64,000 nt of DNA from Sphingomonas sp. HMP9 (GTDB lineage: Bacteria > Pseudomonadota > Alphaproteobacteria > Sphingomonadales > Sphingomonadaceae), in contig NZ_AP022673.1 of NCBI RefSeq assembly GCF_013374115.1, positions 2,260,501 to 2,324,500 of the forward strand, given 5' to 3'. Below the pieces are notes generated by a model that worked only from the letters and a program-made list of their open reading frames with translations, did not search any database and was not told the DNA's origin. Below, piece after piece: positions 53,685-55,865 of the stretch. Every line of letters starts with the position of its first letter. Positions within the stretch are counted from its first letter, which is position 1. The position numbers and the translations under genes are program-made.

Positions 53685-55865
53685 ATGCCTGACCTTCCCG
53701 CGACCGAGACCGAAGCCGCCACCGAACTGGGGGCGCTCGCCGCGCAGATCGCGTATCACAACGCGCGCTATCACACCGACGACGCGCCCGAGATCAGCGA
53801 CGCCGAGTATGACGCGCTGGTGCGGCGCAATGCGGCGATCGAGGCGGCATTTCCGGCGGCGGTGCGAAGCGATTCGCCGAGCCGGACGGTAGGGGCGGCG
53901 CCTGCCGGGCATCTGGCGAAGGTCGCGCATGCCAAGGCGATGATGAGCCTCGACAATGCGTTTGCGGACGAGGAGGTCGAGGAGTTCGTCGCGCGCGTGC
54001 GCCGGTTCCTGAAGCTGGCGGACGACGCGCCGGTGGCGTTGACCGCGGAGCCGAAGATCGACGGGCTGTCGTGTTCGCTGCGGTATGAAGAGGGGCGGCT
54101 GGTGCAGGCGCTTACGCGGGGTGACGGGCAGGTCGGCGAGGACGTGACGGCGAATGTCCGCACCATCAGCGACATCCCTGAAACCTTGTTCTCCCGCGAA
54201 GGCGGGAGCCCAGACTGGGCTCCCGCCTTCGCGGGAGAACATAGTAAGGGAGGAATCCCCGCGATCTTCGAGGTTCGCGGCGAGGTTTACATGGCGAAGG
54301 ACGACTTCGCGGCGCTCAACGCGCGTCTGCTCGCCGAGGCCGAAGAAACGGGCAAGGAGGCGCGGCAATTCGCGAACCCGCGCAATGCCGCGGCCGGATC
54401 GTTGCGCCAGAAGGATGCGAGCGTCACCGCGAGCCGGACGCTCCGGTTCCTCGCGCATGGATGGGGCGAGGCGAGCGTGGTGCCGGGCGAGACCCAGGCG
54501 GCGGTGGTCGACACGCTGCGCGGCTGGGGCTTTCCGATCGCCGACGGGTTTGCGCGGGTCGAAGGGACGGCGGCGGCGCTCGACGTGTACCGCCGGATCG
54601 AGGCCCAGCGCGCCGACCTGCCCTTCGACATCGACGGCGTGGTCTACAAGGTCGATCGGCTCGACTGGCAGGCGCGGCTGGGTCAGGTGGCCAAGGCGCC
54701 GCGCTGGGCGATCGCGCACAAGTTTCCCGCCGAGCGCGCGCAGACTTTGCTCGAACGGATCGACATCCAGGTCGGGCGGACCGGCGCGATGACTCCGGTC
54801 GCGCGGCTGTCGCCCGTCACCGTCGGCGGCGTCGTGGTGACCAACGCGACGCTGCACAATGCCGACGAGATCGAGCGACTCGGCGTGCGACCGGGCGACC
54901 GGGTGCTGGTGCAGCGCGCCGGCGACGTGATCCCGCAGATCGTCGAAAATCTGACGCCGAACGCGGAGCGCGCTGCGTATGTCTTCCCGCATAGCTGCCC
55001 CGAATGCGGATCCGCCGCCGAGCGCGAGGAGGGCGAGGTCGTCTATCGCTGCACCGGCGGGCTGATCTGCCCGGCGCAGCGGGTCGAGCGGCTGATCCAC
55101 TTCGCGTCGCGCCATGCGTTCGACATTGGCGGGCTCGGCCAGACGCTGATCGAGGCGTTCTTCCGCGACGGGCTGATCGAGTCACCCGCCGATATCTTCC
55201 GCCTGACCGAGGAGCAGCTCGCCGCGCGCAAGAAGGACGGGCGCGTGTGGGCGGCAAAGGTGATCGCGGCGATCGCGACCAAGCGGACGATCCCGCTCGA
55301 CCGGTTCCTGTTCTCGCTCGGCATCCGCCACGTCGGCGAGATTACCGCGCGTGACCTTGCGCGACGCTATGTGTCGGCCCGTGCGCTCGGCACCGTGCTG
55401 CGTCACGCAGTGTTCCTGCGCGGGCAGATCGAGCCGGTGATCGGCGAACCCGAGCGGAAATTCGTGCTCCGCCGCGACAAGCTGCTGGTTGGCGCGATCG
55501 AGACTGCGGGGATCGGGCCCGAGGTGGCGAGTGCGCTCGTCGGCTTCTGCGCCGAGCCGCACAACCGCCGAGTCGTGTTCGACCTGTTGCGCGAAGTGGA
55601 GCCGGCGGACGTCGTGCACGAGACTCGCGAGTCGCCGGTGACGGGGCAGATCCTGGTCTTTACCGGCAGTCTCGAGACGCTGAGTCGCGACGAGGCGAAG
55701 GCGCAGGCGGAAGCGCTGGGCGCACGCGTCGCTGCGTCGGTGTCGAGCAAGACCGGCCTCGTCATCGCCGGCCCCGGCGCAGGGTCGAAGCTCAAGAAAG
55801 CCACCGATCTCGGTATCCGCGTGATTACCGAAGCCGAATGGGCCGAGATCGTCGCGAGCAGCTAG
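53685..55865 (+). CDS. ligA: NAD-dependent DNA ligase LigA
   Basis: 726 residues from ATG 53685. Seals nicks in replication and repair. Adenylation domain with catalytic Lys124 in '[13 protein letters not shown]'; '[14 protein letters not shown]'; OB-fold '[19 protein letters not shown]'; a four-Cys zinc finger from '[10 protein letters not shown]' to '[11 protein letters not shown]'; helix-hairpin-helix region; C-terminal BRCT domain '[19 protein letters not shown]'. Oddity: about residues 168-186, between '[11 protein letters not shown]' and 'PAIFEVRGE', are encoded by a 55-bp family B palindrome not expected in the family. The frame stays open. Confidence 0.96.
54187..54241. repeat. Family B perfect palindrome inserted in frame in ligA
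   Basis: 27 bases at 54187-54213 are exactly complementary to 54215-54241 around one central base. It reads in the ligA frame as '[17 protein letters not shown]'. It is the only family B copy in this window that lies inside a gene. Confidence 0.92.

Follow-up and report, generated by a model that had tools for sequence, protein, structure and literature searches.

How a perfect palindrome comes to lie in frame within the gene for an essential DNA ligase, and why that gene should receive it, are the questions raised by ligA in the window, by which we mean the whole 64-kb stretch of DNA analysed here. The open reading frame matches LigA, the NAD+-dependent DNA ligase, at NCBIfam equivalog level (NF005932/TIGR00575), and its product carries the Pfam adenylation, OB, ZBD, HhH and BRCT domains; a query with the LigA protein P0139 returned one LigA match in the window's own genome. 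As an earlier note made from the DNA letters had described, a perfect 55-bp palindrome lies within the 726-residue frame and leaves it open, with two 27-nt arms that are 100% complementary across a 1-nt spacer (Table 1).

A tight REP-like dimer inside ligA

Each arm of the palindrome is a hairpin unit in its own right (CTCCCGC-GAAG-GCGGGAG followed by a CCCAG tail), and the pairing of the arms together with the dispersed family to which they belong identifies the whole as a tight inverted dimer of a REP-like unit. Chance was ruled out as its source by the perfection of the arms, by 18 copies of the unit in the window with up to 3 mismatches versus 0.02 expected, by an inverted-repeat score of 26 for the window loop when the best of 300 mononucleotide shuffles reached 11, and by the RNA fold predicted for positions 54150–54290 (−86.6 kcal/mol, z −9.4). 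This last value also agrees with the very stable mRNA hairpin that had been anticipated from the letters. Compared with empty sites, the net insertion amounts to 57 nt, its exact ends being uncertain by a few bases, since target and element have TTG/TG in common. The earlier note was right that about 19 residues are added but placed them at 168–186; they occupy approximately residues 169–187, preceded by DIPETL. Within the adenylation domain, the insert thus follows the KIDG-containing core and precedes EVRGE, with the KIDG motif intact and the catalytic motifs of LigA invariant across 54 aligned proteins.

The unit is abundant beyond ligA. Half-unit matches with at most 2 mismatches number 332 in the 4.0-Mb genome, versus 14 for the reversed control, and the window holds six dimers and two single units of the ligA type, so that inverted dimers are the main form. 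The unit has a 7-bp stem, C[T/C]CCCGC/GCGGG[A/G]G, that opens with a C-G pair and a 4-nt GAAG loop; most units end in CCCAG or TCCAG, and both unit variants are common in this genome. Across 39 copies the half-unit border consensus is C(T/C)TG before TTC, with the T present in 34 and the G in 37. The ligA copy had been thought to have lost a variable core seen in most other copies, a reading that we abandon, as tight dimers with a 1-nt spacer form a standing class that accounts for three of the window's six dimers (among them the ligA copy) and for 38 strict instances genome-wide. Alongside this C(T/C)TG-tagged subfamily, the same genome contains canonical CGTC-ATTCCCGC-like units at L006, L014 and L017 (position about 1497), which read CGTC-AT[T/C]CCCGC-GAAG-GCGGGAA and have cores.

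The description of the family as otherwise intergenic holds at the four sites checked (9958–10025, 23007, 42521 and 52063). For the genome as a whole, we took a census of 30 of the 36 exact-core matches (L021 and L022 being halves of one dimer), considering open frames of at least 150 aa and scanning 16 frames with Pfam. Among these 30 loci, ligA was the sole one inside a Pfam-supported gene with the domain running across the repeat; one further open frame has a Pfam domain, but 3' of the repeat.

Table 1 Positions in the window of ligA, its palindrome and other members of the repeat family
Feature	Position	Strand	Basis
ligA, NAD+-dependent DNA ligase, 726 aa, carries insert	53685..55865	+	ORF; NCBIfam NF005932/TIGR00575; Pfam
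KIDG adenylation motif, residues 124-127, intact	54054..54065	+	
Perfect 55-bp palindrome, tight inverted dimer of REP-like unit, in frame in ligA	54187..54241	.	Arm pairing and dispersed family
Left unit, TGTTC-TCCCGC-GAAG-GCGGGA-GCCCAG	54187..54213	+	
Right unit, reverse complement of left unit	54215..54241	-	
Net insertion relative to empty sites, 57 nt, 19 codons	54189..54245	+	Alignment to empty sites
EVRGE motif, residues 196-200, shortly 3' of insert	54270..54284	+	
Tight dimer, same repeat family	1021..1063	.	
Dimer with core, 5' of UvrB domain	9958..10025	.	
Dimer with core, 3' of pgi	23007..23073	.	
Dimer with core, same repeat family	39659..39727	.	
Repeat site 3' of malic enzyme gene	42521		
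Tight dimer, same repeat family	48195..48237	.	
Repeat site 3' of recN	52063		

Filled and empty sites in close relatives

We compared LigA across the genus, finding it in 150 of 151 genomes. Among the 30 best LigA loci, the insert is present in eight species, including the window's own, and absent from six sister species whose LigA is 93–94% identical, 19 residues shorter and cleanly joined at the flanks, bearing out the suggestion that relatives would lack exactly these residues. Database LigA proteins with the window-type insert come from Sphingomonas sp. BK036, S. aurantiaca, sp. UV9 and sp. PP-F2F-G114-C0414, and genome records with it from Sphingomonas sp. Leaf34 and sp. UV9. When the 15 closest species were placed on a tree of ligA DNA, filled and empty alleles interleaved, with 5 changes and 288 of 500 shuffles as low, so the order of gain, loss and recombination cannot be read from it. 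Three further LigA proteins (P0011, P0012 and P0016) combine a divergent N-terminus with an insert-bearing remainder like that of the window clade; these mosaics are a sign of recombination inside ligA, and we dropped them as separate insertions, the insert being of the same kind.

To judge how the added residues might be accommodated, we turned to an AlphaFold2 model of LigA (mean pLDDT 86, pTM 0.60), which agrees with solved LigA structures. Its pLDDT falls below 50 in two stretches, residues 69–75 and, longer, residues 172–189. The latter is probably a disordered loop in this model, in line with the tolerated surface loop proposed earlier, with the proviso that few alignment rows carry the insert and low pLDDT there is therefore only a hint of disorder. 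Codon variation among the eight carriers was also informative: nonsynonymous and synonymous variants stand at 5:4 in the 17 insert codons, 8:7 in the next 6 and 80:462 in 660 flank codons, with variable codons making up 6 of 17 in the insert versus 383 of 660 in the flanks. Within units, paired T/A and C/G states switch together across the eight carrier species. Taken with the codon variants, this coupling suggests that the peptide is nearly free and the palindrome DNA regular. Genomic copies converting the insert, a recent origin, and selection acting on the hairpin would each be expected to leave it regular, and these data do not tell the three apart.

The LigA loop across the Sphingomonadaceae

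Loop peptides different from that of the window were first met in P0042, P0111 and a Sphingorhabdus metagenome-assembled genome. A query with the insert region of P0042 yielded 58 further ligases (P0121–P0178), among which P0121–P0172 have an RSSRA-type peptide, identical in 51 of 52, and P0173–P0178 another type; the search for relatives of the P0111 insert returned P0111 alone. In one ligA search, 4 of the 80 named loci had loops of at least 16 aa, a measure that adds one flanking residue, and two of these were the window insert.

We then surveyed 249 LigA genes from 57 genera of the Sphingomonadaceae, the family indicated by named hits to Sphingomonas, Parasphingorhabdus, Erythrobacteraceae and Novosphingobium, leaving out L271, in which the loop region is absent. 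The loop usually measures 9–11 aa (180 of 249), which is the short loop that the earlier note had expected, and 87 of the 120 proteins listed have exactly 10 aa; the insert is therefore far from general among LigA proteins, as it would be were it an old feature of the order. Loops of at least 17 aa at the ligA insert position nevertheless occur in 42 of the 249 genes. Palindromy was unmatched by any of 300 shuffles in 34 of these long loops, and in the other 8 some shuffles were as good. As the 249 loci are a non-random sample, part of it ranked by search score with insert-bearing queries, the 13 long loops among 159 stretches taken before loops were known are a fairer guide to frequency than the 29 among 90 search-ranked loci. 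None of the 8 window-genus genomes among those stretches, at least 5 of which had been picked for a long match, has a long insert.

Sorted by eye, 40 of the 42 long loops fell into ten repeat types: A (CGTC-like), B (CTGAGCCTGTCGAAG), C (TCGAGCGAAGTCGAG), D1–D3 (three CCCTCCCC-type palindromes), E (CCGGCGAAGGCCGGG), F (CCCCTGCGACGGCAGGGG), G (GTCGCCCC) and H (CTCCCGCTTGCGGGAG); L162 and L215 fitted none. Kinship is possible among A, E, F and G, and likewise among D1–D3 and H; merging on that basis leaves at least four clearly unlike repeat groups. The types form 27 genus-by-type combinations in 18 genera, or 24 with those types merged. On a LigA tree from which the loop had been excluded, insert presence and absence require 33 changes, 28 of them outside the window's genus, compared with a mean of 37.8 (33–40) for 100 random labellings, so that inserts are scattered almost at random. 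The ligA insertion is thus not an isolated case, the loop being a recurrent site for several repeat types. Two side observations concern sequences related to these loops: copies of a CCGGCGAAGGCCGGGGCCCAG unit, close to type E of other genera's LigA loops, lie in the window at 8334, 39969, 52473 and 52546, and an identical 19-aa loop, QRLVAPHGGDLFGDGVPDV, which is not palindromic, occupies the LigA site in both L083 and L162.

Most of the inserted palindromes tested have counterparts dispersed in their carriers' own genomes. We counted motifs for types B, C, D and H in 30 genomes, a palindromic pattern counting each site on both strands, and obtained 33–68 matches per genome for type B (3 carriers), 14–109 for type C (4 carriers) and 11–27 for type H (4 carriers). 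The type D pattern had at least 15 matches in 9 of the 11 carriers searched (13 carriers exist) and 1–2 in the remaining two, G390 and G223. Reversed motifs gave 0 matches, except that the type D pattern gave up to 2 per genome. Type A was counted in the window's own genome and, as tight dimers, across the genus, where 123 of 151 genomes have none; G047 and G007 hold 20 and 13 tight dimers although they lie outside the 15-genome REP-rich clade of the genus, and the LigA of G047 is 74% identical to that of the window.

These results bear first on whether the long loop is simply old. A long loop already present in an ancestor, passed on vertically or moved between lineages with segments of ligA and diverging later, would fit the interleaved alleles of the 15 closest species and the mosaics that join the same insert to a divergent N-terminus. 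For the family as a whole it is refuted by the 180 loops of 9–11 aa and can explain only spread within the window clade; the unlike insert DNA between genera, matching dispersed repeats in most carriers' own genomes tested, also tells against it, and we hold it to be very unlikely. Indeed, one codon position filled by about ten repeat types in 18 genera rules out common origin for the set.

We instead consider it probable that a permissive LigA loop has repeatedly caught REP- or RPE-like palindromes, the tight dimer of the window among them. On this view, a CGTC-like REP palindrome dispersed through the genome would have entered ligA in frame as a tight dimer, adding 57 nt to the short adenylation-domain loop between the DIPxxL and FE[VI]RGE motifs, and the enzyme would tolerate, perhaps neutrally, the disordered 19-residue loop translated from it. 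Recurrent landing in the Sphingomonadaceae, by about ten types from at least four unlike groups in many separate entries, would follow from two conditions: the loop tolerates long peptides free of stops, and mobile-looking palindromes are plentiful in these genomes. The decayed inserts of L209 and L298 are as expected if an insert is merely tolerated. Tolerance alone leaves unexplained why the LigA loop and not many others is used, ligA being the sole Pfam-supported hit among the 30 loci and such inserts being absent from the UvrB and MaeB rows listed. In these two controls, a UvrB and a malic enzyme from the window, none of the best ~150 rows each from 298 genomes searched exceeded the query stretch by more than 4 aa, though an orthologue carrying a long insertion might be split up or fall outside those rows. 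Within LigA itself, 38 of the 55 net inserts of at least 12 aa lie at the insert loop, 15 at reference residues 541–589 and 2 elsewhere.

A preference of the mobilising machinery for this ligA DNA, through its sequence, structure or replication context, would place the hotspot ahead of any selection. The entry points of several repeat types do lie only a few nucleotides from one and the same Leu codon, and the letters that border dispersed copies, C(T/C)TG before TTC, are the same as those offered by the ligA Leu codon TTG in the window clade. We nonetheless find such a bias rather unlikely, given that clearly unlike repeats with different ends use the same site. A Leu precedes the insert in all 40 typed loops, and 38 of them keep a Pro near the insert end. 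The codon for this Leu varies (TTG, CTT, CTC, CTG and CTA), the position of the left border differs by a few bases from one repeat type to another, and a common target motif was not seen by eye.

Alternatively, inserts could be selected, with the added loop or the ligA mRNA hairpin tuning ligase amount or activity and perhaps aiding persistence or movement of the palindrome. Strong recurrence in one essential gene, the strongly negative z of the predicted hairpin, the joint switching of paired states in eight species and the smaller share of variable codons in the insert than in the flank would all suit selection, and Di Nocera, De Gregorio and Rocco (2013, PMC3733652) stress REPs in replication and repair genes. 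Set against this, the inserts encode very different peptides and add anything from 7 to about 42 aa, some have decayed, most species examined have none, and the coupled states may stem from conversion by genomic copies, both unit variants being common. Selection is on balance improbable. A bolder version, in which the loop is a preferred refuge, inserts alter ligase output or nick sealing to the advantage of element or host, and ligA is a control point for palindrome traffic in the Sphingomonadaceae, strikes us as highly improbable.

Known palindromic elements and the question of a mobiliser

The window unit resembles CGTC-1 REPs, as characterized in PMC3733652, in being a short palindrome with a 4-nt loop (GAAG here) and a GC-rich stem, in its short unpaired CCA-like tail (here mostly CCCAG/TCCAG), in occurring mostly as inverted dimers, and in its many copies in alphaproteobacteria with no dedicated transposase and occasional in-frame intragenic copies. 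It differs from that account in its terminal tag, which is C(T/C)TG/TGTT here and CGTC there (TGTC/CCTC allowed), and in its stem, which has 7 bp opening with C-G here and 8 bp opening with AT pairs there. Its mode of insertion recalls the Rickettsia palindromic elements (RPE-1, -4, -6 and -7) and Wolbachia WPE, palindromes likewise tolerated in frame in conserved genes; here too an in-frame repeat palindrome in a conserved gene is missing from close relatives (8 filled, 6 empty). The hosts are different, RPEs are larger (105–146 bp in PMC2229807), and insert types at one Rickettsia locus are taken to have a common origin, whereas unlike types share one site here. Because Di Nocera, De Gregorio and Rocco (PMC3733652) equate RPE-6 with CGTC-1 (and RPE-4 with CGTC-4), kinship of the window unit to the Rickettsia elements is closer than analogy, though two CGTC-1 features are missing; the Rickettsia-like insertion proposed in the earlier note is in this respect strengthened. 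That an RPE-bearing protein can work is indicated by a guanylate kinase that stays active, as cited in PMC2229807.

Intragenic REPs are already known. PMC3733652 reports them in the repair genes uvrA, uvrB, polA and recB and, in one case, in a DNA ligase of O. terrae, whose intragenic repeats it counts as GTAG type. The target class is therefore the same, with a ligase included, the O. terrae case being compared at gene level; the difference is that there most genes within a category carry their repeats at different sites, the exception being recB of two Xanthomonas. What is new here is that, across the family, a single codon position in an essential ligase gene is a hotspot for several types of repeat, and we found no earlier report of a LigA loop hotspot in the open-licence PMC literature. 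PMC3767692 describes different RPE types at the same Rickettsia loci and names hotspots as a possibility; it still asks if a locus shared by coding palindromes such as RPEs reflects common origin or a hotspot. About ten types at one codon position make the hotspot question testable in terms of insertion bias, loop tolerance and selection.

The inverted dimers are shared with REPIN/RAYT systems (PMC3733652), from which the window's genome differs in having no RAYT/Y1_Tnp gene: PF01797 gave 0 matches there, and we rejected a RAYT as mobiliser in this genome. Across the genus, 16 of 151 genomes have a match to PF01797; the REP-rich clade has a single copy, in G134, and it contains three stops. 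If the units do move, the mobiliser would presumably come from elsewhere.

For the enzyme itself, the loop inserts represent a natural insertion scan of NAD+-dependent DNA ligase, of which inhibitor-bound structures exist, and they mark the LigA loop as a site accepting up to ~40 extra residues. A second length-variable site lies at residues 541–589 near the HhH region (L186, L231, L245, L246, L188 and others); its inserts are mostly non-palindromic, with 2 of 15 (L186 and L231) palindromic beyond 300 shuffles. Separately, the uvrB open frame has 460 codons (8819–10198) 5' of the UvrB domain and extends across the REP dimer there, so automatic annotation could give a falsely long UvrB.
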